A DNA stretch of 34,280 nucleotides from a virus. Made by a program: the position numbers and the translations under genes. The notes beneath the pieces were generated by a model. That model had not been told where the DNA came from, ran no database searches, and worked only from the letters and a program-made list of their open reading frames with translations. The stretch spans positions 1-34,280 of IMG/VR virus record IMGVR_UViG_3300021959_000185; one strand, given 5' to 3'. Positions within the stretch are counted from its first letter, which is position 1. The number at the start of each line of letters is the position of its first letter. Shown piece by piece: positions 3,857-27,434 of the stretch.

Positions 3857-3870
3857 GACCAATTTAAAAA

Positions 3871-3914
3871 GTGTCACAATAGGTTCCCCATGCTGGTTCT
3901 TTTTGCAATACTAT
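3871..3914 (+). promoter_or_regulatory. Putative promoter of the VWA/HEXXH gene
   Basis: A GTGTCACA box (3871-3878) lies 38 bases (start to start) before a -10-like TACTAT (3909-3914), and the ATG follows 28 bases after the start of that -10. The same spacings recur before the MoxR ATPase gene at 6197-6265. No good -35 box is seen here, so the assignment rests mainly on the likeness between the two regions. Confidence 0.45.
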
Positions 3915-3936
3915 ATGCACATACGAGACAAATTTC

Positions 3937-7360: not shown

Positions 7361-7873
7361 ATGTCTAACTCTTGGTCCTTATTATACGATGAATTGAATA
7401 TGGAATACTCTTCTTCTGATATATTTACTATGAATACAGATAAATCACATACTAAAGCAGATGGATATTCTGTTGACGGTATTTCTTTTTCAGACTATGA
7501 CCCAAATAAAATTATTCTTACCCCTATGACTCCTGAAGATCGAATAGATCTAAACCTTGATCAACTTTCAAACAATGGTTTTTGGAAGTATGAAGAAGAT
7601 CTTACTATGAAGGAGGTTCGTGAATACCTCTCAGAAACATATAGATCACATTATGTTTCTAAAGAATCTAAGACACAAACTCTAGATCTTGTTGAAGCAA
7701 TTGGTGATGCTGAACCATTTTGTCGCTCCAATGCAATCAAGTATCTTTCTCGTTTTGGTAAAAAGAACGGCAAATCAAAAGGTGATATTTTGAAAGCAAT
7801 TCACTATTGCATTCTTCTTTATCACTTCTCTGGACTACACAATGAAACTAAGGGAACCTATGAAACTTTCTGA
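7361..7873 (+). CDS. DUF3310-like protein (T7 gp1.7 family)
   Basis: The C-terminal half (about residues 90-165) fits DUF3310: a SHYVSK start, LDLVEAIGDAEPFCRSNAIKYLSRFGKK and a DILKAIHYCILL helix. The family includes T7 gp1.7, a nucleotide kinase, but kinase activity here is only an inference. The N-terminal 60 residues are not recognisable. The ATG at 7361 abuts the -10 of a perfect promoter, so from that promoter translation would begin at a later ATG such as 7400 or 7430. The 3' end overlaps gp45 by 14 bases. Confidence 0.65.
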   Translation: MSNSWSLLYDELNMEYSSSDIFTMNTDKSHTKADGYSVDGISFSDYDPNKIILTPMTPEDRIDLNLDQLSNNGFWKYEEDLTMKEVREYLSETYRSHYVSKESKTQTLDLVEAIGDAEPFCRSNAIKYLSRFGKKNGKSKGDILKAIHYCILLYHFSGLHNETKGTYETF

Positions 7874-8525
7874 TAAAACTCTTTCAGTACTTAAAAACTT
7901 TTCTTCAATCAACCAATCCATTCTTTTCAAGCAGGGAAACAAACTTCGCACTATTAGTGTGATGAAAAATATTCTTGCCGAAGCAACTATCAGTGAAGAA
8001 TTGATCAAAGACTTTGGAATCTATGATCTAAATCAGTTTCTTAATGGTTTATCACTTCATTCTAGTCCCGAACTTGACTTTTCTAATAATGGATACGTGA
8101 TGATCCGTGAAGGAAAGTCTCGCTCAAAGTACTTCTTTGCAGACCCTAATGTTATTGTAACTCCTCCTGAAAAAGAGATCACACTTCCTAGCGAAGATGT
8201 ATCTTTTGAACTGAGTACAGAACAATTGGGACAACTGCTTAAAGCTTCTGCTGTATATCAATTGCCAGACCTTTCTGCTGTTGGTGAAAATGGTGTTGTC
8301 AAACTTCTTGTTCGTGACAAGAAGAATGATACATCCAATGATTATGCTGTGGTCGTTGGTGAAACTGACTCTACATTCTCATTCAACTTTAAAGTTGAGA
8401 ATATCAAAGTTCTTCCTGGAACTTATGAAGTCGTTGTATCACAAAAACTTTTGTCACGATTTACTTCCAAGAATCATGATTTGACTTATTATATTGCCTT
8501 AGAACCTGATTCTACTTTTGGTTGA
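7860..8525 (+). CDS. 45: DNA polymerase sliding clamp gp45
   Basis: gp45 is the trimeric processivity clamp for gp43, loaded by gp44/62. It also activates late transcription by contacting gp55. The protein is 221 residues (T4: 228) and starts MKLSDKTLSVLKNFSSINQS, typical of cyanophage clamps. An in-frame ATG at 7842 exists, but 7860 has an AAGGGA ribosome site and gives the family start. It overlaps the DUF3310-like gene and is followed by a coupled membrane protein. Confidence 0.92.
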   Translation: MKLSDKTLSVLKNFSSINQSILFKQGNKLRTISVMKNILAEATISEELIKDFGIYDLNQFLNGLSLHSSPELDFSNNGYVMIREGKSRSKYFFADPNVIVTPPEKEITLPSEDVSFELSTEQLGQLLKASAVYQLPDLSAVGENGVVKLLVRDKKNDTSNDYAVVVGETDSTFSFNFKVENIKVLPGTYEVVVSQKLLSRFTSKNHDLTYYIALEPDSTFG

Positions 8526-8734
8526 TGACCTTTGATGTTGCTATGAGAATCACTGGCAGTGCTCTTGCGATCATTGCATACTTTGTGGTTCTTCATGTTA
8601 GTGTTGCCTTTGGAGTACTTCTCCACTTTATTGGAGATGCTATTTCAGTTCCTTACTTTATAAGGACAAAATCGTGGGATGTGGTTATAATGTTATCATT
8701 CCTTTTGATAATCTCTTTATCAAAAATATTATGA
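8525..8734 (+). CDS. Small membrane protein (about two helices)
   Basis: A 69-residue hydrophobic protein (MTFDVAMRITGSALAI...) with two or three likely membrane segments and a C-terminal LLIISLSKIL. Its ATG overlaps the gp45 stop (TGATG), so it is coupled to the clamp. The 3' end overlaps the next gene by four bases. Function unknown. Confidence 0.6.
   Translation: MTFDVAMRITGSALAIIAYFVVLHVSVAFGVLLHFIGDAISVPYFIRTKSWDVVIMLSFLLIISLSKIL
8663..8691 (+). promoter_or_regulatory. Candidate promoter before the NHPC protein
   Basis: AGGACA (8663-8668), a 17-base spacer and a perfect TATAAT (8686-8691), about 40 bases before the ATG at 8731. The -35 is poor (4 of 6) and the site lies inside a coding region, so it may be chance. 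Confidence 0.35.
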
Positions 8735-9258
8735 ATATCTTTGTAACTGATCCCAGCCCATACAAGTCTGCTGTGGTTCTTCCTGACAAGCACATTGTCA
8801 AGATGCCCTTAGAGACCTGTCAGATGCTTGCTATTGTATGCTCTGACAAATGGGGACATAACTTCGGCACTCTTCCTAGAGCAGACGGTACTCCCTATGC
8901 TACTGAGAAGGGTGCCTTTCGCAATCACCCCTGCACTAAATGGGCGAATGAGTTTGTAACTAACTGGCAGTGGTTACTTGCACATGGTCTTGCTATGTGC
9001 GATGAGTATACTGATCGTTATGGTAAGGTCCACACCTGCCAGAAGACGCTTCTAGCAGCAAAGGAGATACTTCCTACTGCAGATCCACAAGGTCGCAGTG
9101 GAAAAGAGACAACACCATTCGCCAGAGCTATGCCTGACGAATTCAAATATGATGATAGCATTGATACATTCACTGCTTATAAAATGTATATTGCTTCTAA
9201 ACCATGGGTATGCGATAATTATCTTCGTATGCCACAGCGTAAACCTGATTGGGTATGA
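8731..9258 (+). CDS. Conserved phage protein with NHPC-TKWA motif
   Basis: A 175-residue protein starting MNIFVTDPSPYKSAVVLPDK. It carries a set of motifs I remember from an unnamed family in many phages: DKHIVKMPLETCQML, NHPCTKWANE, a LAMCDEYTDRYGKVH segment and TPFARAMPDEFK. No function is established to my knowledge. Conserved H, C and D/E residues suggest an enzyme or metal binder, which is inference. The start at 8731 is preferred over an in-frame ATG at 8674, which would overlap most of the membrane gene. It ends KPDWV and overlaps the next ORF (ATGA). Confidence 0.7.
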   Translation: MNIFVTDPSPYKSAVVLPDKHIVKMPLETCQMLAIVCSDKWGHNFGTLPRADGTPYATEKGAFRNHPCTKWANEFVTNWQWLLAHGLAMCDEYTDRYGKVHTCQKTLLAAKEILPTADPQGRSGKETTPFARAMPDEFKYDDSIDTFTAYKMYIASKPWVCDNYLRMPQRKPDWV

Positions 9259-9377
9259 ACTACCAGAAAGGCGATGTTTTCCTTGACAAGAATACACACA
9301 AGTTGTATATTTTTGATGGGAATGAATGGTTGGAAATTGTTCCTACCTCCGTATTGAAAAAACCAGATTGGATTTAA
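9255..9377 (+). CDS. 40-residue protein before gp44
   Basis: A short ORF from an ATG overlapping the previous stop (ATGA at 9255-9258) to TAA at 9375-9377. The product starts MNYQKGDVFLDKNTHKLYIF and looks like a small beta-strand domain of the kind GDVFLDx-x-xKLYxFDGxEW, common in phage accessory proteins. It ends KKPDWI, echoing the KPDWV end of the preceding protein. Function unknown. Confidence 0.55.
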   Translation: MNYQKGDVFLDKNTHKLYIFDGNEWLEIVPTSVLKKPDWI

Positions 9378-9379
9378 TT

Positions 9380-10327
9380 ATGAGTCGTGATGAATTTCTT
9401 TGGGTGGAGAAATACCGTCCCAAAACTATTGAAGAATGCATCTTGCCAGATGCAACTAAGAAAACCTTTCAAGACTTCCTAGATAAAGGTGAGATACCTA
9501 ATATGCTCCTTGCAGGACCTGCAGGTTGTGGAAAGACTACGGTAGCCAAAGCACTATGTAACGAACTGGGAGTAGATTTTTATGTCATCAATGGATCCGA
9601 TGAAGGACGATTCCTTGATACCGTCAGAAATACTGCGAAGAATTTCGCTTCGACCGTCTCGCTTTCGTCAACTGCAAAACACAAAGTCATCATCATTGAT
9701 GAGGCAGATAACACAACGAACGACGTACAACTCCTCTTACGTGCGTTTATTGAGGAGTTTAGTGGCAACTGCAGATTCATCTTTACCTGCAACTTCAAAA
9801 ACAAAATTCTCGAACCACTTCATTCCCGCACAACGGTTATCGAATTTGGAATTGGAGGTAAAAACAAACCTGCCATTGCAGCCTCATTCTTCAAACGTCT
9901 CCAAGAAATCTTGGATACAGAAGGTGTTAAATATGATAACAAGGTCCTGGTAGAACTTATTAATAAGCATTTTCCAGATTGGAGACGTGTTCTTAATGAG
10001 TGCCAAAGATATTCTTCTTCTGGTACTATTGATCCAGGTATTCTTGCAACCTTTAGTGATGTAAAAGTAAATGACTTGGTTAAGAAACTTAAGGAAAAAG
10101 ATTTTCCCGAAGTACGTAAATGGGTTGTCAATAACCTGGACAATGATACTGCTGTCCTACTGCGTCGTATTTACGATGCTTGTTATGATTCCATGGTTCC
10201 GAATAGTATTCCTGCTGCTGTGCTTACTCTTGCTAAGTATCAATATCAAATGGCATTTGTGGCGGATCAAGAAATAAACATGTTAGCATGTTTGACTGAA
10301 TTAATGGTGGAATGTACTTTCAAGTAA
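9380..10327 (+). CDS. 44: Clamp loader ATPase gp44
   Basis: gp44 is the ATPase subunit of the gp44/62 clamp loader that opens gp45. The 315-residue protein starts MSRDEFLWVEKYRPKTIEEC, the usual opening of RFC-like loaders. It has Walker A GPAGCGKTT (residues 46-54), the DEAD box IIDEADNTT (107-110) and an SRT motif (about 150) that would act as arginine finger. The ATG at 9380 lies three bases after the preceding small gene; a longer in-frame start at 9326 would overlap it and is rejected. Confidence 0.93.
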   Translation: MSRDEFLWVEKYRPKTIEECILPDATKKTFQDFLDKGEIPNMLLAGPAGCGKTTVAKALCNELGVDFYVINGSDEGRFLDTVRNTAKNFASTVSLSSTAKHKVIIIDEADNTTNDVQLLLRAFIEEFSGNCRFIFTCNFKNKILEPLHSRTTVIEFGIGGKNKPAIAASFFKRLQEILDTEGVKYDNKVLVELINKHFPDWRRVLNECQRYSSSGTIDPGILATFSDVKVNDLVKKLKEKDFPEVRKWVVNNLDNDTAVLLRRIYDACYDSMVPNSIPAAVLTLAKYQYQMAFVADQEINMLACLTELMVECTFK

Positions 10328-10536: not shown

Positions 10537-11597
10537 TTTTATCTGAGAGTGATGCAGTTTATGCTGCTAATAAATTTATTGATTATTATACTCAGTTTAA
10601 TCGTATTGATGACTATCTTCGTCATATTAAAGAAGATAGGGGAGAACAACGTTCTGGATATTTACCTGGATTTGGTGCAGATTCAGAAATGTTTGATGAC
10701 TTTAATATTCATCCAAATGATATGAAGTTTAAAATTCATGTTGTTGATACGAATCCAAAAACAAATTCAAAGTATAATCAGTGGCTTTATTCTGAGATAC
10801 TGAACCTTACTGCATCTAATCCCATTGAAGAGGCAATTCCTGGAAGAACTCATAAATGGATTGTTGTTGAAACAAATACTGATAAGGTAGTTGGTGTTGT
10901 TCGTTTTGGTTCACCAACTATTAATAGTAAACCACGTAATAATTACTTTGGGGAAATCCCTTCTCTTTCTGATATTAATGCTGGATTTGTTATGGGGTTT
11001 AATATTGTCCCCACTCAACCCTTTGGATTTAATTACTTGGGTGGAAAATTGCTTGCTCTTCTAGCATCTTCTAAAGAACTTAAGCAGCAGTTTGATGAGA
11101 AGTACAAAATAGATCTCAAATATTTTGAGACAACTTCTCTTTATGGCACAACAAAGGGTGTGTCTATGTATGATGGACTCAAACCATTCTTGAGGCATAT
11201 TGGTGATACTGAAAGTAACTTTTTACCTCTCTTTCATGATGATGTTTTTAGGGAATTTTTCTGGTGGTTCAACGAACGTAATGGTGGAGAGCGTTTAATC
11301 TCTGCAGATAAGTCGTCTAAAAAACTTAAGATTCAAGTTAAGATGATATCTATTATTAGAAATTCTTTGCAGGATGAAGAAAAACTAAAAGAATTTGATG
11401 ATTGTATAGAACATGCAAAATCTTTAACTGAAAAGAAACGTTATTACCTAGGTAAGTTTGAACATACAATGGAAGAAGCAATTGTATGGTGGAAGAAGAA
11501 AGCAACTAAGAGATATGAAAAACTTCAATCACAACATCGAGTAAGAACTGAACTTGAGATTTGGGGAACTACTGAGAATATGGAGATTATTAGATAA
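10533..11597 (+). CDS. DUF4338 (DruA)-like / acetyltransferase-fold protein
   Basis: A 354-residue protein. Its core (about residues 105-235) resembles DUF4338, the domain of DruA from the Druantia defence system: HKWIVVETNTDKVVGVVRFGSP, then GFNIVPTQPFGFNYLGGKLL and LKYFETTSLYGTTKG. This corresponds to the family's VGAI-x-FGSP, L-LPWV-x-NLAS and LLETFVD-x-GT-Y patterns as I remember them. The C-terminal 100 residues are lysine-rich and helical. It sits between gp44 and gp62, overlapping neighbours by four and one bases. A role in replication or counter-defence is speculation. Confidence 0.5.
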   Translation: MILSESDAVYAANKFIDYYTQFNRIDDYLRHIKEDRGEQRSGYLPGFGADSEMFDDFNIHPNDMKFKIHVVDTNPKTNSKYNQWLYSEILNLTASNPIEEAIPGRTHKWIVVETNTDKVVGVVRFGSPTINSKPRNNYFGEIPSLSDINAGFVMGFNIVPTQPFGFNYLGGKLLALLASSKELKQQFDEKYKIDLKYFETTSLYGTTKGVSMYDGLKPFLRHIGDTESNFLPLFHDDVFREFFWWFNERNGGERLISADKSSKKLKIQVKMISIIRNSLQDEEKLKEFDDCIEHAKSLTEKKRYYLGKFEHTMEEAIVWWKKKATKRYEKLQSQHRVRTELEIWGTTENMEIIR

Positions 11598-11965
11598 TGG
11601 AATTAAAAGACTGGTTAAATTCAATCAATTTCAATAAGGAAAATTTAAGTGAGAACATTAGCTCTTACCCTCCATATATCGTTAATCGTTGTCTGTCTGG
11701 GCACCTTGATTGTGTCATGTACGCTAACGAGATGAACAAGTATCCTAATTTAGATAAAGATATGCAATATTCTTTTTATCTAAATACTTTGAGGAAAAGA
11801 AAGAGGTTCTCTCCCTGGATCCGAAAGGATAAAGTCCAGGATTTAGAATGTGTCAAACAATACTATGGTTATAGTAATGAGAAGGCATCTCAGGCTCTGA
11901 AAATTCTGACAAATGAACAGATTAACTTTATTAAACAACGACTTGATGTTGGAGGAATGAAATGA
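11597..11965 (+). CDS. 62: Clamp loader small subunit gp62
   Basis: A 122-residue protein starting MELKDWLNSINFNKENL, with YPPYIVNRCLSGHLDCVMYA and a C-terminal helix ending ILTNEQINFIKQRLDVGG. The sequence pattern and position just before regA match gp62 of T4-like cyanophages. gp62 completes the gp44/62 loader. It is shorter than T4 gp62 (187), as usual in cyanophages. One-base overlap with the gene before and four-base overlap with regA. Confidence 0.85.
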   Translation: MELKDWLNSINFNKENLSENISSYPPYIVNRCLSGHLDCVMYANEMNKYPNLDKDMQYSFYLNTLRKRKRFSPWIRKDKVQDLECVKQYYGYSNEKASQALKILTNEQINFIKQRLDVGGMK

Positions 11966-12399
11966 CTACTGTGGAACCTACAGTTCAATGGTCTCAGGAC
12001 CAAATGGTTGAAGTGCTTCTCAATGAACCTGATGATTTTTTGAAGGTGAGAGAAACGTTGACAAGGATTGGTGTTGCATCAAGAAAAGAAAAAAAACTTT
12101 ATCAATCATGTCATATCCTTCATAAACAAGGAAGATATTATATCGTTCATTTCAAAGAACTTTTCGCTTTGGATGGTAAACACGCTAATCTCACTCTTAA
12201 TGATGTTCAGCGTCGTAATCGTATTGCTCGTCTTCTAGCAGATTGGGGACTTATCTCAATTGTAAATGAAGATTCTGTTCTTGATATTGCACCTCTAAAT
12301 CAAATTAAAGTTTTGGCTTATAAGGATAAGGGTGAATGGATTCTTGAACAAAAATATAATATAGGAAAAAAGACCAAACCCCAAGAAGAAACTCAATAA
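11962..12399 (+). CDS. regA: Translational repressor RegA
   Basis: RegA binds phage early mRNAs at their start codons and blocks translation. The sequence follows T4 RegA closely: NEPDDFLKVRETLTRIGVAS, LYQSCHILHKQGRYYIVHFK and a LLADWGLISIV segment. The protein is 145 residues (T4: 122) with N- and C-terminal extensions. It overlaps gp62 by four bases and is the last gene before a terminator. Confidence 0.95.
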   Translation: MTTVEPTVQWSQDQMVEVLLNEPDDFLKVRETLTRIGVASRKEKKLYQSCHILHKQGRYYIVHFKELFALDGKHANLTLNDVQRRNRIARLLADWGLISIVNEDSVLDIAPLNQIKVLAYKDKGEWILEQKYNIGKKTKPQEETQ

Positions 12400-12402
12400 A
12401 TA
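12395..12402 (+). promoter_or_regulatory. Weak late-promoter candidate AATAAATA
   Basis: AATAAATA differs from the T4 late -10 box TATAAATA in one base and lies across the regA stop codon. A transcript from here would run only about 75 bases to the terminator at 12452. May be chance in AT-rich DNA. Confidence 0.3.
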
Positions 12403-12451
12403 AGAATGAGACTCTTTTCGTGCGGTCTCTACAAAAGTCGGAACACCACAT

Positions 12452-12485
12452 AAAGAGGTATGGTTAACCCTATACCTCTTTTTTT
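12452..12485 (+). terminator. Rho-independent terminator after regA
   Basis: AAAGAGGTAT (12452-12461) pairs with ATACCTCTTT (12472-12481). The loop contains an inner GGTT/AACC pairing, and the stem runs into a T-tract to 12485. It closes the clamp-loader/regA operon. Confidence 0.88.
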
Positions 12486-12495
12486 ATTGTCGTGT

Positions 12496-12503
12496 TATAA
12501 ATA
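12496..12503 (+). promoter_or_regulatory. T4-type late promoter for hsp20
   Basis: A perfect TATAAATA, the gp55-dependent late -10 box, stands 11 bases after a terminator T-tract and 60 bases before hsp20. The position between terminator and gene supports it. Confidence 0.8.
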
Positions 12504-12562
12504 AGTATGGATGCCTTCGGGGTCCACAAAACACAAACTCGCTTTTAAAGGAGCTACGAATC

Positions 12563-12997
12563 ATGGGAACCCTTGCACGATATACTGCTGCGGACCTACC
12601 TGCGTTGATGGAACGCATAAATAGGAATAGCATTGGAATGGATGAATACTTCGATAGGTTGTTTAATCTCCACGAAACAACAAAGAACTATCCTCCATTT
12701 AATCTGGTCACGGTCAGCAACGTAGAATCGAGACTAGAAATAGCACTAGCAGGATTTAAAAAGAAAGAAGTAAATGTCTACACACAAGATGGAAAACTTT
12801 TTGTTGAAGGACAAAAAGAGGACACCGAATCAGAAACCACTTATGTCCACAGAGGAATGGCTCAACGATCTTTCACCAGATCTTGGACACTGGCAGAGGA
12901 TACGGAAGTTAGATCAGTTGAATTTGAGGATGGGTTGTTAACTATTGTTCTGGGAAGAATTGTACCCGAACATCATCAGAAGAAAGTCTGGTTCTAA
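12563..12997 (+). CDS. hsp20: Small heat-shock protein Hsp20
   Basis: A 144-residue alpha-crystallin-domain chaperone, a hallmark gene of T4-like cyanophages. The core domain spans about residues 48-135, with VESRLEIALAGFKKKEVNV, a RSFTRSWTLAEDTEV segment and FEDGLLTIVLG. The IxI-type tail is not obvious; the protein ends VWF. A clear AAAGGAG ribosome site precedes the ATG. It has its own late promoter and terminator, so it is likely a single-gene late unit, perhaps aiding capsid assembly. Confidence 0.93.
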   Translation: MGTLARYTAADLPALMERINRNSIGMDEYFDRLFNLHETTKNYPPFNLVTVSNVESRLEIALAGFKKKEVNVYTQDGKLFVEGQKEDTESETTYVHRGMAQRSFTRSWTLAEDTEVRSVEFEDGLLTIVLGRIVPEHHQKKVWF

Positions 12998-13456: not shown

Positions 13457-13655
13457 TGAAGTTCCTGCATCAATTCCTGGAGAACCAGATTGCAAACTGA
13501 CTAAGCCTTTCCTTGTAGTGGAAGGTGGCATGCTAGAATCATGGATGATGGATGTAACAAGAAATGATGAATTTATGATTAGTTCTGACAAAATTTTAAC
13601 TCTTGCAGATCCAACTCCAACACTAATTGAAAAGTATCAGGACTTAACTAAGTAA
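13395..13655 (+). CDS. Small beta-barrel-like protein, paralogue B
   Basis: An 86-residue protein (MEKTIKAILLENNQILISQI...) that repeats the pattern of its neighbour: I-x-S-x-I-DE, KLTKPFLVV, ESWMMDVT, DKILTLADPTPTLIEKY. It starts inside the acidic tail of the upstream gene, in another frame. Its last eight bases overlap the convergent homing endonuclease gene. Function unknown. Confidence 0.6.
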   Translation: MEKTIKAILLENNQILISQIDEVPASIPGEPDCKLTKPFLVVEGGMLESWMMDVTRNDEFMISSDKILTLADPTPTLIEKYQDLTK

Positions 13656-14187
13656 TGCTTTTCTTTTTATAACGAGAATACCATCCAGTATATTTTCCGT
13701 TTTTATAATTTGCATTATTTTCCCCCCTTACTTCATCGTAAGTTCTATCTGTTCGTCTCCCTTCACTATATGCTTTTTGTAAAGAAAGGGAAATTTTTTT
13801 CTTTTGCTCTTCTGACATTTTTTTTCCTTTTTGTGAAGATACTTTTCCTTTCCTATACGAAGACATTTTTATCTTAGTTTCTTCGGAGTGTCTAAAACCT
13901 AAAGTTCCTTGCCCACCTTTATTGCAATTATAACCTTCCTTCAAGGTATTAAAATGTTCTATCCAATATTGCTCTTTCTCATCAAGTAAACAAATGTTAC
14001 ACTCTTCAAGTGTAAATATTTTAAAATCTTGTTTTGAGTATTTTCTTATTGCGTGATATAATGGAGTATCAACACCTTTTTTTGCCTGCAACCAGTGCTG
14101 ATATATTCTTTTTGACAACCTTTGTTTAGTTTGTCCGATGTATCTCTTATTAGTTATTAAATTTTGAATACAATAGATACATCCCAT
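13648..14187 (-). CDS. GIY-YIG homing endonuclease with NUMOD3 repeats
   Basis: The only minus-strand gene. The 179-residue protein has an N-terminal GIY-YIG nuclease domain: CIY (3-5, glycine replaced by cysteine), YIG (16-18), R27, E72 in EQYWIE, and N87/N89 in YNCNKGG. Two NUMOD3-type DNA-binding repeats follow (GFRHSEETKIKMSSYRKGK and GKKMSEEQKKKISLSLQK), then a basic tail with NYKNGKYTGW. It is a free-standing homing endonuclease of the T4 Seg/I-TevI kind, squeezed between paralogue B and gene 43. A CATAAATA late box lies upstream on its own strand. The base composition looks more AT-rich than its neighbours. Confidence 0.9.
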   Translation of the reverse strand: MGCIYCIQNLITNKRYIGQTKQRLSKRIYQHWLQAKKGVDTPLYHAIRKYSKQDFKIFTLEECNICLLDEKEQYWIEHFNTLKEGYNCNKGGQGTLGFRHSEETKIKMSSYRKGKVSSQKGKKMSEEQKKKISLSLQKAYSEGRRTDRTYDEVRGENNANYKNGKYTGWYSRYKKKSIT

Positions 14188-20311: not shown

Positions 20312-20502
20312 TGCTTACTATCACCAACTACATAACAGCATTCTGGACTGTAGTTGTGGTAAATTGTATTCAACCAGTCAATTGGAAAGCATGTATTTCA
20401 GTTCATGAATGGTTAATTCCAGAACTGGAGTATGCATGGAAACTCAAGACTGGTGAAATAGTTCCTTATCAAACAGAGAAGGACTATCTCAAGGGGTTAT
20501 AG
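20311..20502 (+). CDS. Small protein whose gene runs into tRNA-Ala
   Basis: A 63-residue protein (MLTITNYITAFWTVVVVNCI...) with a hydrophobic N-terminus and a polar tail ending DYLKGL. Its last ten bases, including the TAG stop (20500-20502), are also the first bases of tRNA-Ala. Unknown function. Confidence 0.55.
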   Translation: MLTITNYITAFWTVVVVNCIQPVNWKACISVHEWLIPELEYAWKLKTGEIVPYQTEKDYLKGL

Positions 20503-20565
20503 CTCAGTTGGTAGAGCGCCTGCTTTGCAAGCAGGATGTCAGGAGTTCGAGTCTCCTTAACTCCA
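20493..20565 (+). tRNA. tRNA-Ala(TGC)
   Basis: A full cloverleaf: acceptor GGGGTTA with TAACTCC (one G-T pair), D arm GCTC/GAGC, anticodon stem CCTGC/GCAGG around TTTGCAA (anticodon TGC), and T arm AGGAG/CTCCT with TTCGAGT. The discriminator is A at 20565 and no CCA is encoded. It reads GCA codons. Its 5' end overlaps the stop of the preceding ORF. Confidence 0.95.
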
Positions 20566-20566
20566 T

Positions 20567-20574
20567 TCTAAATA
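20567..20574 (+). promoter_or_regulatory. Late-promoter variant TCTAAATA
   Basis: TCTAAATA stands just after tRNA-Ala and 20 bases before the 462-aa gene. CTAAATA also precedes the next gene of the cassette (21986-21993). It overlaps a perfect hairpin, AATACTT-AAA-AAGTATT at 20571-20587, that could aid tRNA 3' processing. Confidence 0.4.
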
Positions 20575-20593: not shown

Positions 20594-21982
20594 ATGGCAG
20601 GAGCAAGCACTGAATTATATTCTGAAGTGTTGGCACAAGTTTGTCTAGCATATTCTATAAAGAATAATTCTGCCCTAACAAAGGATATATTAATAAAGGG
20701 TGATAAGTTAGATCCTAAAATTATCAAGGATATTGAAAGATATATGATTACCCAGTCATCGGTTAATCTTTCCAGTCCTATGTTTGCTGATGGATTTGTA
20801 AAATATATTAGTGGCAATGTCAGTGGAAAATTGAACTGGATTGATGCTCAAGGAAGAAATATGCAAGAGGTGAAGAAAAGATTTAAAATTGGCAATAAGC
20901 ATAAAGTATTCAATGATAAGTTATTTGATAGTAGAGCAACTTCAAATAATCCATATACAGCATTCTTAAAAGCAGGAACAGGAGCAAAAACTGATAAATG
21001 GAATCCTGCAGATGTTTGGGCGATGAATTTAGATGGTATAAGAGCACTTAATAGACTAAACAAAAGAGTGATGTCTAGATCAAAAATATCTCTTGAGTAT
21101 TGCAATCAATTTTTGGCAGATCAATTTAGTCATGGAAATATCATACCCATCTCTTTGAAGAAACCTCAAAAAACACCTCATATAGAGATAGTCAATAGTA
21201 ATGAATTTGTATCTAGGATTGCTTTGAATGAGACTAGAAATGCCACAATAGAATATGACTATGGAAACAAAGACGTAAAAATTAATTTTACGATAGAAAC
21301 AGTTCAACTTTCAAAGGGACAAAAAGCATCAACCGCGAGAAGAAATCCTAATTCTATTAGTGGAAAAGTAGTTGCTGGTTCCCAAAAACATATTAGATTG
21401 AAGTATCATGTTGATAATAAAAAGATAGAACTTGAATATACTCAATCTGGATATCCTTCAAGAGCTGCAGCAAAGATGGGTAATCTTGGAGCCACTAATT
21501 TTCAAAAAATAATAAACGATACTGCTAAATCTGGGGTAAGTAAATTGAACCAGATACAAAGTAATTATAATGATATTGATGTAAAAACTAATCCTTGGTT
21601 TAATGGTAGACAATTGGGTGTGACAAAAGCAAGAAATGAAAAGAGTAAAATAACTCCACACATGGATAGGATTGCAGAGTATGTTGGAGAGATGTGGAAA
21701 GAAATAAATGGAACTGTATTTGATCCCTCTGAAAGATCTATGAAAGATGAGTCTGCAATTTGGAGCAAGGCAAGAGCAGGAGAATTGGGAGTAGCAATTT
21801 CTGCTATCCCTAATGAGAGAGTGAAGCAAAGAGTAATTCAAAACTTATATGAAGCTGCTGCCTCTATCAGTTATGTTACTGGTTTGAACAAAGAAGAGAT
21901 GGAATTGGAAAAAGAGGTTGGGATGGATCCATCTTCAAGAAAAACAAACTTTAATGCTAGTGTTTATGTTAAGGTGTTTTGA
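20594..21982 (+). CDS. 462-residue protein of unknown function (late cassette)
   Basis: The first gene of the virion-like cassette. The protein starts MAGASTELYSEVLAQVCLAY and contains TDKWNPADVWAMNLDG (about residues 132-148), a basic central part, and RSMKDESAIWSKARAGELG near the C-terminus. I remember KWNP-x-D-x-W motifs from unnamed phage proteins but cannot name a function. Its late-type upstream motif and neighbours suggest a virion-associated or late protein; that is inference. Confidence 0.65.
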   Translation: MAGASTELYSEVLAQVCLAYSIKNNSALTKDILIKGDKLDPKIIKDIERYMITQSSVNLSSPMFADGFVKYISGNVSGKLNWIDAQGRNMQEVKKRFKIGNKHKVFNDKLFDSRATSNNPYTAFLKAGTGAKTDKWNPADVWAMNLDGIRALNRLNKRVMSRSKISLEYCNQFLADQFSHGNIIPISLKKPQKTPHIEIVNSNEFVSRIALNETRNATIEYDYGNKDVKINFTIETVQLSKGQKASTARRNPNSISGKVVAGSQKHIRLKYHVDNKKIELEYTQSGYPSRAAAKMGNLGATNFQKIINDTAKSGVSKLNQIQSNYNDIDVKTNPWFNGRQLGVTKARNEKSKITPHMDRIAEYVGEMWKEINGTVFDPSERSMKDESAIWSKARAGELGVAISAIPNERVKQRVIQNLYEAAASISYVTGLNKEEMELEKEVGMDPSSRKTNFNASVYVKVF

Positions 21983-21985
21983 TAC

Positions 21986-21993
21986 ACTAAATA
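21986..21993 (+). promoter_or_regulatory. Late-promoter variant ACTAAATA
   Basis: ACTAAATA lies 31 bases before the nucleotidyltransferase gene, in the short gap after the 462-aa gene. It shares CTAAATA with the site at 20567; a variant of the T4 late box is plausible but untested. Confidence 0.4.
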
Positions 21994-22016
21994 ATGTATA
22001 AGGATTATCAATATCA

Positions 22017-23237
22017 ATGAAAAGTTTCTTTCAGTTCCTGACAGAGGCACAATCGCAGGCAAGTATGCAGGCGAGTAAATTAAACCTCAAAAGTGACGGA
22101 CACGGTGGTTGGTTAGACACTCGTGGCAACTTTGTTGCGACTACTGAAGATGGTAAGTTAAAGTTTTTAGATAAAAAGAAATCAAAAGCAGAAGATGGCA
22201 AACCTGCACAAGCAAGAGCAGCAGCAAAACCTGAGGAAAAATCTGACAAGGTTGCACCTAAAGAGACTGATAAGACATCATCAAAAGAAAGTGGAGGAGA
22301 TCAGACTGGTTCAGAGACTGCAGAAACTCTGACTGTTGCATTTGGTCGTTTTAATCCACCAACTATTGGTCATGGAAAACTTTTGAGTGGTTCAAAAAAG
22401 GCAGCTGCAGGTGGTGACCTTAAAATTTATCCTTCAAGGACTCAAGATTCAAAGAAGAATCCACTTGATCCTGATATGAAAATTTCATATATGAAAAAAA
22501 TGTTCCCCGAATATTCAGAGAACATTGTAAATGATGCTGAAATGAAATCTATTTTTGATGTCTTAATTGCTGCTTCTGAGAAAGGATATTCCTCAGTAAA
22601 TATTGTTGTAGGATCTGATCGTCAAGCAGAGTTTGAGAATTTAGCACAAAAATATAATGGAGAACTTTACAACTTTGATTTGATTCGTGTTATTTCTGCA
22701 GGTACTCGCGATTCTGATGCAGAAGGTGTTGAAGGTATGTCAGCATCTAAGATGAGGAAGGCTGTACTTGATGACGACTTCGATTCTTTTAGAAAGGGCA
22801 CACCAAAAGAGTTAGATGATGGTGATACTAAAGCATTGTTCAATGCAGTTCGTTCTGGAATGTCTGTAAAGAAAAAGAAAAAAGTTGAAGAACTTTGGCA
22901 GATTATTCCAAAATTTGATATGAAGAATCTTCGTGAGAATTACATTTCGGGAAAGATCTTCAAGATTGGAGATATTGTGGAAAATACTAATACTGGATTG
23001 GTTGGTAAAATTATACGTCGTGGAACTAATCATCTCATTTGTGTTACTGAAGAAGACTATATGTTTAAGGCATGGATTCATGATGTTATGGAATCTGTTG
23101 TAAATTATTCTGGACCTTCAGGAGTTCCTGCAAATCAGAGACTGGTTGGTACTGATGCTCATAAAAAATATGTTATGAAAATGATGGGTGTTAAGGAAAT
23201 TAGGAACTTCATAAATAAATATAAGGATAAAAAGTAA
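22017..23237 (+). CDS. Nucleotidyltransferase-domain protein with capsid-targeting-like N-terminus
   Basis: A 406-residue protein in three parts. The N-terminus MKSFFQFLTEAQ resembles the T4 internal-protein capsid-targeting peptide (MKTYQEFIAE as I recall) and contains LTE, a possible (L/I)-x-E cleavage site of the gp21 prohead protease. A basic Lys/Ala linker follows. The middle (about residues 100-285) is a nucleotidyltransferase of the NadM/cytidylyltransferase type with TVAFGRFNPPTIGHGKLL and GMSASKMRKA, the family's T/HxGH and ISxSxxR motifs. The C-terminus (about 305-355) has a KOW/SH3-like FKIGDIVENTNTGLVGKIIRR. It is likely packaged in the head. Its substrate is unknown. Confidence 0.75.
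   Translation: MKSFFQFLTEAQSQASMQASKLNLKSDGHGGWLDTRGNFVATTEDGKLKFLDKKKSKAEDGKPAQARAAAKPEEKSDKVAPKETDKTSSKESGGDQTGSETAETLTVAFGRFNPPTIGHGKLLSGSKKAAAGGDLKIYPSRTQDSKKNPLDPDMKISYMKKMFPEYSENIVNDAEMKSIFDVLIAASEKGYSSVNIVVGSDRQAEFENLAQKYNGELYNFDLIRVISAGTRDSDAEGVEGMSASKMRKAVLDDDFDSFRKGTPKELDDGDTKALFNAVRSGMSVKKKKKVEELWQIIPKFDMKNLRENYISGKIFKIGDIVENTNTGLVGKIIRRGTNHLICVTEEDYMFKAWIHDVMESVVNYSGPSGVPANQRLVGTDAHKKYVMKMMGVKEIRNFINKYKDKK
23210..23221 (+). promoter_or_regulatory. Late-promoter candidate before the 827-aa gene
   Basis: CATAAATA (23210-23217) and an overlapping AATAAATA (23214-23221) lie 31-42 bases before the ATG at 23252, inside the last codons of the upstream gene. Each differs by one base from TATAAATA. 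Confidence 0.45.
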
Positions 23238-23251
23238 ACGTATCTATACTT

Positions 23252-25735
23252 ATGACTCACCTTAACGATATTACCAAAATTTATTTGGATCAAATTGCTG
23301 AGAAAAAAGACGATTCATATCTGGAACCAGATATGAAGAAGCGTCAGGCAAACAATGAGAAGGCTCGTAAGGAACTTGCAAAGGGTCCTCAAATGAAGAA
23401 CCCCCACTTCGAGTCGGTTGAGGTTGAAGAAGAGAAGAAACCTTTGCCTAAGACAAAAATGTTCCGCAAAGCGGGCAACCTTGGACGTGATGCAATCAGT
23501 ACTCCTATTGATCCTGAGAAGCGTCAGAAGGCATATGATCGTTCCAAAAAGATTATCAAAACTCTGAATGTTGAGGGACTTGATCCAGTAGGAAAAGAAG
23601 ATAGTGATATTGATAATGATGATAAGAAAAATACCAAGGCAGATAAGTATTTGATGAATCGTCGTAAGACGATTGGAAAGGCTATGAATAAAGTTGATGA
23701 GGCAGTTCATGCATCTAAAACTAAAATTCATTCTCCTCATGAAGTTCCTGATAAAAATTTAAAGGGACTTGTATCAAAAGCAGTCAAGAGAATTGATACT
23801 GATGTTGATGGAGATACCGATAAGAATGACAAGGCAAAAGGTGAACTTGGTGAGTTTGTACCAGGAGTAGGAAACAAGAGACTTTATTCGACTACAAGAA
23901 CAAAAACTGCAAAAGAATCTTTCTCAAACTGGAGACAAGATCTTTCTGAAGTTATGGGAGAGGGCGAAACCGAAAAAAAGATCAAAGAAAAAAAAGTAAA
24001 TAATAAAATCAAGATCAATCCAAAACTTGGTGAAGCAATTGAACAAATTGGTGGAACTCTCTTAGAGGAAATTGAAGTTGATGAGATGGATTTTATCATC
24101 GAGAGCGTATATGATGAACTACTTGAAGAAGGTTATGCCGAAGATGATGTTGAAGAAGCAATTGAAAATGCTATGGAAGCAACGGTAACCTTTGGTTCTG
24201 ATACCAAACCAATGAAAAAAGATGGTTCTCAAGTAGGATCAAGAAGAAAGTTCCTTAAGAGAAAGGCTGGCGAGTTTCTTCAAAAATCAAAGAAGAAAGT
24301 AGGAATGGCAGTTGCTCAGGCACGAGTTGATGCTTACAATAAAAAGAGAGAAGTAAAGCAAGCAGCAAAAGATAAGGTAAACCAGAAGAAGCAAAGTCTT
24401 AAGAACTTTATCAAAAATAAGGCTCAAAAGGTTGTTGACCGTATGAGTGAGGAAGTTGAAGTAGAAGAGTATGTTGATTTCCTTATTACTGAAGGGTATG
24501 ATTGCTCTGATCTTACCTGGGATGATATGTATGAAGAGTATCAATCTTTAGATGAAGGTTTACGTTCTGCAGTAAAGAGACTTCTTGGTAAGAAGAAAGA
24601 AGAACCAGCAAAACCCATGAGTAGGGGTGATCAACTTCGTAAGAAGTATAATGTTGGTCCAGAAAAATCTGATACTTCTGCTAAGGCTCAAATTCTTAAG
24701 AAGACCCGTGCAAAAGCAGATAGTGATCAAAAAGAATTTGGTGGATCACGTTATTCTAAAGGTGTTGCAGATAGATCAAAAGCAGCACATGAACGTCAAT
24801 TGAAAGGTGGTTATAGTAAGTATGGTGCTGATGATGCGAGAGGCAGTGGTAACAAAGCCCGCAAACGTGCCGCAGCTTTAACTAAAGAAGAACTTGAGCA
24901 GATTGAAGAACTTCATAAAGGTAGGCACGGACAGACTGAGAAGCAGTATCAGGACAGCAGATCTGATGCTGGTAAGATGATCTCTGGTGACTCTAAAATG
25001 AGTGGATCTAGGTATGCTCAGGGCAGAAGAACTAGCAGTGATGCTGGTCCTCAACCTGCTGGTGGGTCTAAGAAACCTGCAAGTCAGGGTAAGATGGACA
25101 GTGGCACACGCACTGACATCACCTTCCGTAAGGCAGCACTTAAAAAGAAAGCAGCAGAAATGAAGGAGGATGCAGAAGTTTCTGAAGGTGTATATGGTGA
25201 TAAAACTTCAATGAGAAAGGCAGCCGCCAAAGAAAGAGCATCAGAAAAAAAAGCAGGAAGCAAGGCAAAGGCTCCTGGTAGACTTGGACCTTCTGCTGGA
25301 AAGTCTTATGCTGATCATGAAGAGTATTCAATTAGAGCACACGATAAGATTACTAAAAAGACTAAACCATCTGTTGTTGGAATGACCAGTGAAGAGGCAT
25401 CAATGTCTCCTCAAGAATTGCAACTTCAAAAAAAGAAGGCAAGAATTGATAGAATGATTGCTATGAAGAGGGCACAAAATCTTTCTAAAAAAAAGACTGG
25501 TGCTGAAACCCCAGCAAAGGCAATGGGAGAAGCAACCGAAGATTCTCTGAGAGACCGTCGCATGGAACGCGGTGGTGTGGATGGTAATGTCAGATATGAT
25601 AGAGCACCTAAACCTGCTAACACTGCTGGTAAAAAGAAACCTGCTTCTGATGGCATGTCTGCATTTGAGAAAGTAAAGGCAAGCATTCGTGCCAAGCATG
25701 GACAGGGTGCAATCATGAATACCGAGAAGAAGTAA
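23252..25735 (+). CDS. Large lysine-rich virion-type protein with acidic metal-binding-like loops
   Basis: An 827-residue, highly charged protein. The N-terminus MTHLNDITKIYLDQIAEKK is of a type I remember from cyanophage structural proteins, and its IAE fits a prohead-protease site. EF-hand/dockerin-like acidic runs are DSDIDNDDKKNTKAD (117-131) and DTDVDGDTDKND (182-193). Residues 160-222 recur in the next protein with 89% identity. Two modules of the form F-I-IES-x-YDELLEEGY and DFLITEGYDCSD-x-TWDDMYEEY are helical. The second half is basic, low in hydrophobics and rich in Gly/Ser/Lys. Probably an internal or scaffold-like head protein. Stop overlaps the next start (TAATG). Confidence 0.65.
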   Translation: MTHLNDITKIYLDQIAEKKDDSYLEPDMKKRQANNEKARKELAKGPQMKNPHFESVEVEEEKKPLPKTKMFRKAGNLGRDAISTPIDPEKRQKAYDRSKKIIKTLNVEGLDPVGKEDSDIDNDDKKNTKADKYLMNRRKTIGKAMNKVDEAVHASKTKIHSPHEVPDKNLKGLVSKAVKRIDTDVDGDTDKNDKAKGELGEFVPGVGNKRLYSTTRTKTAKESFSNWRQDLSEVMGEGETEKKIKEKKVNNKIKINPKLGEAIEQIGGTLLEEIEVDEMDFIIESVYDELLEEGYAEDDVEEAIENAMEATVTFGSDTKPMKKDGSQVGSRRKFLKRKAGEFLQKSKKKVGMAVAQARVDAYNKKREVKQAAKDKVNQKKQSLKNFIKNKAQKVVDRMSEEVEVEEYVDFLITEGYDCSDLTWDDMYEEYQSLDEGLRSAVKRLLGKKKEEPAKPMSRGDQLRKKYNVGPEKSDTSAKAQILKKTRAKADSDQKEFGGSRYSKGVADRSKAAHERQLKGGYSKYGADDARGSGNKARKRAAALTKEELEQIEELHKGRHGQTEKQYQDSRSDAGKMISGDSKMSGSRYAQGRRTSSDAGPQPAGGSKKPASQGKMDSGTRTDITFRKAALKKKAAEMKEDAEVSEGVYGDKTSMRKAAAKERASEKKAGSKAKAPGRLGPSAGKSYADHEEYSIRAHDKITKKTKPSVVGMTSEEASMSPQELQLQKKKARIDRMIAMKRAQNLSKKKTGAETPAKAMGEATEDSLRDRRMERGGVDGNVRYDRAPKPANTAGKKKPASDGMSAFEKVKASIRAKHGQGAIMNTEKK
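23729..23917 (+). repeat. 63-codon module, copy 1
   Basis: Encodes residues 160-222 of the 827-aa protein. It aligns without gaps to 25930-26118; 56 of 63 residues are identical by eye. Shared landmarks are PHEVP, KNLKGLV, DTDVDGDTD, GELGEF and PGVGNKRLYSTT. Many differences between the DNA copies are synonymous. Confidence 0.9.
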
Positions 25736-26577
25736 TGCCTGCTGTATCTAAAGCACAGCAGAAGTTCTTTGGGATAGTTCGTGCCATCCAAAAAGGTGAG
25801 ATGGCAGCGACTACTCCTGAGACTGCAAAGGCAGCTTCTGATATGAAGAAGAAAGATGTAAAGGATTTTGCTTCTACTAAACATAAAGGACTTCCGAAAA
25901 AGAAACTTGAAGAGATCCATAAACAAGCACACACGCCACATGAAGTTCCTTCTAAAAATTTAAAGGGACTTGTAAAAAAAGCAGTAAAAAGAATTGATAC
26001 TGATGTGGATGGTGATACAGATCATAACGATAAAAAAAAGGGAGAACTTGGTGAGTTTATTCCTGGCGTAGGAAATAAAAGACTCTATTCTACAACTGGA
26101 ACAAAAACTGCAAAGGAAGCATATTATGGTGGTGAGGAGCAGAGGAAGAAAGACGAGAAGAAGAAAAAGATTGATGCCTTCATGGATAGGGCAATGCCAA
26201 AGCGCACCTTTGATCAGATGGGAAGAGAGACTGACCGTCGTACTGGTAAACTAAAAGAGGAAGATAATTTCACTCAAAAGAAAAAGATACTGAAGAGAGC
26301 AAAACCTCTCCATAAACATCTTTATAAAAACCTCCATAAAAAAGATATGTCTGGTGATGTAAATGAGGTCTATAGTAATTCTGATGCATCCCGTGCAGAG
26401 AAATATTCTAGAGATGATAAAGAGAAGAAACAATTTGCTAAGAACGACAAACGTAAGAAGTTTGGTAAGTTTGTGAAGGATGTAGAAGCAGTCCGAGGCA
26501 AGCGTAAGGGTATGCGTGGAACTAGTAAGGGTAAGTGGGGAACTTTTAATAAAGGTGTCTTTACTCCAGATAATTGA
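25735..26577 (+). CDS. DUF3008-like basic protein sharing the 63-residue module
   Basis: A 280-residue basic protein. The N-terminus (about 1-62: MPAVSKAQQKFFGIVRAIQK, then DVKDFASTKHKGLPKKK) matches DUF3008, known from bacteria and cyanophages. Residues 66-128 are the module also found in the 827-aa protein, with an EF-hand-like DTDVDGDTDHND at 88-99. The rest is rich in Lys, Arg and Asp and ends GTFNKGVFTPDN. Strong basic charge suits DNA contact inside the head, which is inference. It is coupled to the upstream gene. Confidence 0.7.
   Translation: MPAVSKAQQKFFGIVRAIQKGEMAATTPETAKAASDMKKKDVKDFASTKHKGLPKKKLEEIHKQAHTPHEVPSKNLKGLVKKAVKRIDTDVDGDTDHNDKKKGELGEFIPGVGNKRLYSTTGTKTAKEAYYGGEEQRKKDEKKKKIDAFMDRAMPKRTFDQMGRETDRRTGKLKEEDNFTQKKKILKRAKPLHKHLYKNLHKKDMSGDVNEVYSNSDASRAEKYSRDDKEKKQFAKNDKRKKFGKFVKDVEAVRGKRKGMRGTSKGKWGTFNKGVFTPDN
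25930..26118 (+). repeat. 63-codon module, copy 2
   Basis: Encodes residues 66-128 of the DUF3008-like protein and aligns without gaps to 23729-23917. The amino-acid differences are seven substitutions; the acidic loop differs only at K/H. Confidence 0.9.
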
Positions 26578-26605
26578 TATATAGAGTGTAGAACTGAGGT
26601 TCATT

Positions 26606-26809
26606 ATGCTCGCATTCTTACTTCCACTCGCATCAAAAATTATCACCGATGCTGTTGCTAAAATTCCAGAAAATGAAGAACTTGGTGAGAAGATGGTTGA
26701 GATCTGTCTTGTTATTCTTGCTAAAGCGGTTAAGCTGACCAAGACTGATATGGATGATCAACTTCTTGAAGTTGTATCAAAGGCAATCAAAACAAGAGAC
26801 GAAGAGTAA
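26606..26809 (+). CDS. Small protein with hydrophobic N-terminus
   Basis: A 67-residue protein, MLAFLLPLASKIITDAVAKI then an acidic region and two amphipathic helices (KMVEICLVILAKAVKLTK, LLEVVSKAIKTRDEE). A GAGGT site precedes the ATG. It could be a small membrane-associated or virion protein; not a clear holin. A strong terminator follows. Confidence 0.6.
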   Translation: MLAFLLPLASKIITDAVAKIPENEELGEKMVEICLVILAKAVKLTKTDMDDQLLEVVSKAIKTRDEE

Positions 26810-26812
26810 TAG

Positions 26813-26844
26813 ATGGGAGACCAAATTCAAGGTCTCCCATTTTT
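26813..26844 (+). terminator. Strong rho-independent terminator
   Basis: ATGGGAGACC (26813-26822) pairs perfectly with GGTCTCCCAT (26831-26840) across an eight-base loop, followed by TTTT that leads straight into the late promoter at 26844. Confidence 0.92.
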
Positions 26845-26851
26845 ATAAATA
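26844..26851 (+). promoter_or_regulatory. T4-type late promoter, perfect TATAAATA
   Basis: TATAAATA starts on the last T of the terminator tract and lies 32 bases before the ATG of the next gene. It fits a gp55-dependent late promoter for the 183-aa virion protein. Confidence 0.85.
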
Positions 26852-26882
26852 TAATTAGCAAATAATTCAACGGAAGAAAGAC

Positions 26883-27434
26883 ATGGCACTTTGGGGGAAT
26901 AATGATTCCATCCGTGGCGGTGGAACAGTTTTTATCAACTATCAAACTGGTATTGTCACTGGTACTGCCACCACGTTTGGTCAGACTGGCGCAATTCAGG
27001 TTGGTGATGTTATTAGAGTTGGCGACCGTCTTCCTGGTGGTGCCTACTATGGTGACGCAGTAGTTACTAAAATCACTAGCGCAACTAATCTGACTATCGG
27101 TTCAACTGCCGGTCTTAGTGGTGCATTGGTTGGTGCAGCAGGAACTAGTTATGTTGGCTCACAACTTCCTAAATCCTCTATTCTGGATTCTAAGTTTAGT
27201 GAGAAGTATGGTACTGAGAGTAACAACGTATATGGTGTTGCAGCAGAAGGTTTAGATAACGCACAGTCTTCTACCTATCAACTGTCTCATGCTGGTTGGG
27301 TCGGTGTTACCACCTACACTGATGCAGACGGAAATCATAGAGTTAAGTCTGAAGTTCTTGTAGCGATGTCTGGTATTACCACGGGCAACGCACCTGCATT
27401 CCCACCTGGTAACGCTTACGGCGGCGAAAGCTGA
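26883..27434 (+). CDS. Putative virion structural protein
   Basis: A 183-residue strand-rich, Gly/Thr-rich protein starting MALWGNNDSIRGGGTVFINY. It includes GDVIRVGDRLPGGAYYGDAVVTKI, which looks like a small beta domain, and ADGNHRVKSEVLVAMSGITT near the end. Proteins opening MALWGN are frequent among cyanophage structural proteins as I recall. A perfect late promoter upstream supports a virion role. A GGAAG site precedes the ATG. Confidence 0.7.
   Translation: MALWGNNDSIRGGGTVFINYQTGIVTGTATTFGQTGAIQVGDVIRVGDRLPGGAYYGDAVVTKITSATNLTIGSTAGLSGALVGAAGTSYVGSQLPKSSILDSKFSEKYGTESNNVYGVAAEGLDNAQSSTYQLSHAGWVGVTTYTDADGNHRVKSEVLVAMSGITTGNAPAFPPGNAYGGES

Follow-up and report, generated by a model that had tools for sequence, protein, structure and literature searches.

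A nucleotidyltransferase gene of a T4-like cyanophage with a capsid-targeting-like N-terminal peptide: a candidate head-packaged and injected enzyme

The locus, its modules and its neighbours

The window, i.e., the whole stretch of DNA that was analysed, is a virus fragment of 34,280 bases whose T4-like replication genes are ordered as in Synechococcus phage S-SM2. Here, we describe an open reading frame at 22017-23237 on the plus strand, which starts with ATG and encodes 406 amino acids in a single closed frame; replication genes flank it on one side, and primase and ribonucleotide reductase genes on the other. The gene, its modules and its closest surroundings are as follows.

20594..21982 (+): upstream neighbour, 462 aa; positional counterpart of S-SCSM1 ORF 90, an annotated virion protein, assigned by gene order, not alignment
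21987..21993 (+): CTAAATA, a late-promoter-like element 23 nt before the ATG, judged from its spacing in homologues and its enrichment before virion genes
22017..23237 (+): whole gene, predicted 406-aa nucleotidyltransferase; PHROG 395 / T4-GC190, E 1.5e-103
22017..22046 (+): propeptide MKSFFQFLTE, capsid-targeting-sequence-like, residues 1-10; T4 register, kept in 73 homologues, with the L-x-E/A site of capsid proteins (a slash marks the known or predicted cut)
22077..22184 (+): small folded "SDGHGGW" module, residues 21-56; pLDDT about 94; also in a kinase and a Cas9/HNH-like protein of phage S-CREM2
22194..22316 (+): charged disordered linker, residues 60-100; pLDDT under 50
22326..22874 (+): predicted HIGH-superfamily nucleotidyltransferase domain with TxGH and SxSxxR motifs, residues 104-286; fold matches Z 12.3-13.7, invariant G118, H119, S242 and R247
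22929..23096 (+): KOW/SH3-like module, residues 305-360; predicted strands 320-359
23252..25735 (+): downstream neighbour, 827 aa, basic, low-complexity; counterpart of S-SCSM1 ORF 92, an annotated virion protein, by the same MTHLND start and gene order
26883..27434 (+): 183-aa protein; counterpart of S-SCSM1 ORF 95, an annotated tail fiber and virion protein, by a similar MALWGN start and gene order

The match to PHROG 395, known as T4-GC190 in the cyanophage literature, spans residues 97-401, i.e., the enzyme and C-terminal modules. The family has matches in 533 phage records, cyanophages for the most part, where the usual annotation is "cytidyltransferase"; PADLOC gave no match for the 406-aa protein. 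Among the closest known systems is the S-SCSM1 ORF91 NMNAT (T4-GC190 / PHROG 395), which is 67.5% identical with the peptide and all modules included and shows no difference in kind. The structure model (mean pLDDT 82) places a helix at residues 4-10 of the peptide and a small domain up to about residue 56. The linker is largely missing in the homologues of P-RSM6, S-N03 and S-CREM2, where the targeting peptide is kept. An earlier note on this DNA had read the C-terminus as KOW/SH3-like, and this is borne out by the predicted strands (pLDDT about 90-95) and by matches of the region to several phage families without the enzyme domain (PHROG 4808, 22379 and 1945); in S-RSM4 the module is a small gene of its own, and in P-HM2 it sits within a separate gene.

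In the S-SCSM1 record, ORFs 89-93, 95 and 97 around the enzyme are all marked as virion proteins, and it is on this basis that the block 20594-27434 suggests a virion-protein island within the replication region. The neighbouring virion proteins carry no clear capsid targeting sequence (CTS); a candidate on the 23252 neighbour (IAE, residues 15-17) was dropped, since its relatives have IAS and VAK. About 65 residues (HEVPxKNLKGLVxKAVKRIDTDVDGDTDxNDKxKGELGEFxPGVGNKRLYSTT) are common to the proteins of 23252-25735 and 25735-26577, which points to a basic module that was duplicated or exchanged between adjacent virion genes. A tRNA-like sequence at about 20495-20567 directly precedes the 20594 gene, and S-SM2 and S-SCSM1 have tRNA-Ala at that place. 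Elsewhere in the window, a GIY-YIG-like frame of the homing endonuclease type (13648-14187, minus strand), recognized by eye from the sequence, immediately precedes the DNA polymerase gene.

The CTAAATA element is a one-base variant of the published cyanophage late promoter motif NATAAATA (PMC2984593). CTAAATA or TATAAATA occurs in the 60 bp upstream of 37 of 71 close homologues, and 32 of these keep the 23-nt distance; immediately upstream of more distant homologues, the element is missing. Before virion genes detected by mass spectrometry (60 bp; counts are approximate, as the gene start was taken as the first ATG), CTAAATA is enriched in S-CREM2 (17/50 vs 9/139, p 7e-6) and in S-SCSM1 (9/48 vs 9/216, p 0.0014), and ATAAATA in S-SCSM1 (16/48 vs 9/216, p 8e-8). 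GTAAATA and TTAAATA are not enriched before such genes in either phage, nor is TATAAATA alone in S-CREM2. Within the window, CTAAATA also stands 19 nt before the ATG of the 20594 gene, ATAAATA upstream of the 23252 gene, and TATAAATA at 26844, before the gene at 26883..27434.

The N-terminal peptide

The protein begins with MKSFFQFLTEAQ, the first residues being MKSFFQFLTE/A. The earlier note had likened this start to the targeting peptide of T4 internal proteins; the T4 record indeed has MKTYQEFIAEA at the starts of IPIII (193 aa) and IPII (100 aa). In T4, residues 4 and 7 of this peptide serve targeting and residues 8 and 10 processing, and the gp21 prohead protease cuts after L/I-x-E (PMC9026906). 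The window peptide is in register at all four of these positions. The (L/I)-x-E site that had been proposed, LTE, is present; the cut, however, would follow residue 10 (E), not residue 9. The same FLTE/A site is seen in major capsid proteins, i.e., GSFLTE/A in T4 gp23, GSFLAE/A in S-SCSM1 gp23 and LLTEAP in S-CREM2, and T4 gp23 is cut after the glutamate of its site. S-SCSM1, a close relative, has a T4-type prohead protease (ORF40); the 34-kb window covers another region.

In a set of 73 distinct close homologues for which the enzyme domain was the only criterion, F7, L8 and E10 are present in all 73 and F4 and A11 in 72 each, and the codons at the fixed positions change synonymously; residue 9 is free (N/S/K/T/G). 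Fixed residues 7, 8 and 10 around a free residue 9 are the pattern expected if a protease recognizes L-x-E, and to judge from these alignments the peptide is evidently under selection on the protein sequence. For the wider family, four further distant queries were added, and 330 distinct proteins were grouped into 75 clusters at 75% identity. The motif F-x-x-[FYIL]-([LIV])-x-E is found at the start in 53 of the 64 clusters whose enzyme is preceded by ten residues or more, and among the remaining 11 several come close, e.g., MKLSQFLSEA; internal windows show the same pattern in about 1% of cases. Please note that the clusters are related and their counts are therefore not independent trials, and that some of the searches, including some with distant queries, were seeded with the N-terminal peptide itself, which biases them toward peptide-bearing homologues. 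In a search without the N-terminal seed, all 51 Melnitz-type proteins carry the motif. In many short forms, only the peptide precedes the enzyme (MRSFRELTEAKETVVFGFGRFNPP).

Alignment thus bears out the conservation that the earlier note had asked to see. Homologues that keep the enzyme and lack the peptide, which would, by the same note, refute its reading, do exist: 11 of the 75 clusters have no N-terminal extension (P-HM2, S-RSM4 and the jumbo phages K64-1 and 121Q). They belong mostly to other phage lineages, and we read them as non-packaged forms.

Virion-borne homologues and other proteins with the peptide

The earlier note had also called for mass spectrometry of virions. The window's phage is uncultured; published work on other phages finds homologues of the enzyme in purified virions, i.e., of S-SM1 (PMC3037559), S-SCSM1 (PMC9602691), S-SZBM1 (2 peptides; PMC9146016) and S-CREM2 (3 peptides; PMC10665884). 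These homologues start with MKKFSAFLNEA (S-SM1), MKSFLQFLKEA (S-SCSM1), MRFRQFIIEA (S-SZBM1, shorter by one residue) and MKNFSSFLTEA (S-CREM2). A virion-borne, injected NMNAT has already been suggested in print, together with the caution that abundant cell proteins may survive CsCl purification (both in PMC9602691 and PMC10665884). Since virion carriage and an NMNAT-like role are already in print, what is new is the targeting peptide, and the packaged enzyme is not. In the open-licence literature we found no description of a targeting peptide on a packaged cyanophage enzyme, only a T4 review being matched; as far as we searched, neither the peptide nor its occurrence on several packaged enzymes has been described.

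Whole genomes were scanned for the strict motif at gene starts, for which chance alone predicts about 0.01 hits in the window and about 0.1 in an entire phage genome. In S-CREM2, all four genes with a strict CTS start encode virion proteins (Fisher 0.0026): the cytidylyltransferase, a SAM lyase/hydrolase, an APH-like kinase and ORF136. A slightly altered motif, accepted within 28 residues of the start, adds a Cas9/HNH-like virion protein and one non-virion ORF. The pattern FxxF[LIM]xE lies near the N-terminus of all four non-lytic enzymes of the S-CREM2 virion vs 5 of 216 ORFs. Virion genes of S-SCSM1 show no CTS enrichment, with one of two strict hits being a virion protein (Fisher 0.31), which we attribute to most virion proteins there being tail or shell proteins. 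Three of the virion-detected S-CREM2 proteins (OR473000, locus L171) are listed with their peptides.

10579-12846: kinase; MKRFDAFLTEE
7704-10313: Cas9/HNH-like protein; RFASFMAEA at residue 18
3837-5081: SAM lyase; MKDFDSFLEEF

Both the kinase and the Cas9/HNH-like protein also share the module that follows the peptide in the window protein, SDGHGGWxDxxGxFVA.

Proposed delivery, substrate and alternatives

The earlier note had placed two motifs in the enzyme, FGRFNPPTIGH and MSASKMR; both are present, at residues 109-119 and 241-247. The protein is predicted to be a HIGH-superfamily nucleotidyltransferase, on the evidence of a Rossmann-like fold, (H/T)xGH and the downstream SxxxxR. PF01467 is matched by 41 of 48 diverse members of the family, the S-CREM2 homologue being above the cut-off (22.3 vs 21 bits).

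We consider it quite probable, leaving the substrate aside, that the enzyme of this T4-like cyanophage is packaged by means of its peptide and delivered at infection. The gene would be expressed late from its own late promoter, and residues 1-10 would serve as the capsid targeting sequence by which the protein enters the prohead core. There, gp21 would cut after L8-T9-E10 and free the enzyme inside the head. Kept there at low copy, the enzyme would leave with the DNA at infection; in the host, it would use the adenylyltransferase mechanism of its superfamily to couple a nucleotide to a small phosphorylated substrate, and if NMN/NaMN were converted to NAD, host NAD would be raised or rebuilt from the first minutes. 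That the protein is packaged is very likely, the predicted gp21 cut at E10 is likely, and injection is probable. The resemblance that the earlier note pointed out is real, and most of what the note made of it stands.

The alternative that fares best keeps the injected enzyme and gives it another substrate, e.g., a CoA precursor, a nucleotide-activated headgroup (cytidylyl transfer being the annotated activity) or RNA (TmcAL-like); we give it nearly even chances, an estimate that overlaps with that for packaging and delivery because it is a variant of the same reading. PPAT tops the fold scores (Z 13.7, rmsd 2.8, 150 aligned) by about 1 Z over NadD (Z 12.7, rmsd 3.3, 153 aligned) and NadM (Z 12.6, rmsd 3.4, 161 aligned), close to a tie, so an NMNAT assignment by fold was rejected. 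Among PDB entries, MJ0951 (UPF0348) is matched best by sequence profile (E 6e-5), and the "cytidyltransferase" annotation is common. Against this, in NCBIfam the NMNAT-type model TIGR00482 matches 32 of the 48 members and NadR 28, whereas CoaD (TIGR01510) matches only 4 (best E 0.0088); the best TIGR00482 match among the other members has E 1.3e-7. The window protein itself reaches no NMNAT model in NCBIfam, only TIGR00125 at 15.2 bits vs a cut-off of 27.7, and being below the curated cut-offs it is not filed here as an NMNAT. It resembles NadM, NadR, NadD and CoaD in fold and in the TxGH and SxSxxR motifs, and differs from them in its low identity (about 10-16%) and in a conserved loop around SxxxDxKKNPL. 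Of the proposed NMN- or nucleotide-adenylylating enzyme, then, the adenylyltransferase fold stands and the choice of NMN does not follow from fold. NMN/NaMN is the likeliest single substrate that we can predict, tentatively and at somewhat less than even chances. A role in NAD supply is attractive, given that some defences drain NAD and that NAD rebuilding by phages is known (PMC12774641, PMC7824862); that the enzyme plays this role is speculation.

Alternatively, the protein may be packaged and work as an internal core or assembly protein that need not be injected as an enzyme, with catalysis serving head assembly or vestigial. T4 IPIII influences head assembly (PMC9026906), and the adjacent genes of the block carry virion annotations with no function assigned. 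This is unlikely in our view, as G118, H119, S242 and R247 are invariant in the 48 members and the enzyme-only homologues keep them. As in T4 IPII/IPIII, the window protein has a ten-residue N-terminal peptide with aromatic residues at 4 and 7, a hydrophobic residue 8, E10 and A11, and would be head cargo; unlike them, its cargo is a predicted catalytic domain from a widespread superfamily of enzymes, accompanied by further modules, and its cleavage is predicted. T4 Alt, a packaged and injected ADP-ribosyltransferase, is likewise head-packaged and cut by gp21 (PMC9026906), and is NAD-related as the window enzyme would be if the NMNAT reading holds; Alt, however, consumes NAD in modifying proteins and has an unrelated fold, whereas the window enzyme would make a dinucleotide.

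It is also conceivable, although rather unlikely, that a cytosolic late enzyme co-purifies with the particles and that its peptide has another role, e.g., as an assembly or solubility helix. The caution of the S-SCSM1 and S-CREM2 authors and the small peptide numbers (2 in S-SZBM1, 3 in S-CREM2) point this way. On the other side, homologues were detected in four independent phages, the photosynthesis and metabolic enzymes of S-SCSM1 are not marked as virion proteins, unrelated virion-detected enzymes carry the same peptide, and the T4 register is exact, with only the x of L-x-E free. The enzyme of S-PM2 appears joined behind DUF6267 with the peptide absent, and virions of that phage did not yield it; we set this apparent natural knock-out aside and do not use the absence as evidence, because the same study missed gp4, 5, 14, 21, 25, 48 and 53. 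Chance likeness to the T4 peptide, which involves only ten residues, is rejected in view of the low expectation in the window, the 53 of 64 clusters and a conservation that extends over hundreds of homologues across large divergence, and is given a negligible probability.

The proteomics papers place the enzyme and several other proteins in cyanophage particles and leave cargo vs contaminant undecided. The conserved targeting peptide offers a mechanism for cargo and a direct test, i.e., a new N-terminus after E10. If packaging and delivery are right, the hundreds of cyanophages with this gene would inject its product and have it at work on the host ahead of all phage gene expression, possibly on NAD, which several defence systems drain.

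More broadly, the T4-type peptide, often with the "SDGHGxW" module, may be a general delivery tag for head-loaded, injected enzymes in cyanophages and their pelagic relatives, which we regard as an even call. The set would comprise the NMNAT-like nucleotidyltransferase, a Ser/Thr or APH-like kinase, a SAM lyase and a Cas9/HNH-like nuclease, and possibly DUF6267 proteins and an adenylate kinase; if so, injected effectors would be predictable from sequence.

In environmental contigs, the peptide heads DUF6267-like proteins (KWDGAP motif) and one adenylate-kinase-like protein near the nucleotidyltransferase, e.g., in L471 (start 967), L371 (870) and L406 (846), with peptides such as MINFSSFLTED and MKSFKNFITEA. 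T4 gp61.1 (NC_000866, 18966-19130, minus strand; gene 61.1, locus L493), a protein of 54 aa, starts with MKTFKEFIKED, a near-perfect CTS, and may be an overlooked head-packaged protein of T4. Small conserved head-region proteins of S-SZBM1 (122311-122628) and S-SCSM1 (44215-44535), unreported in virions, start with MK[ST]FK[SQ]F[LM]SESVNISGDF, which resembles a targeting peptide, and are possible core proteins that get cut up.
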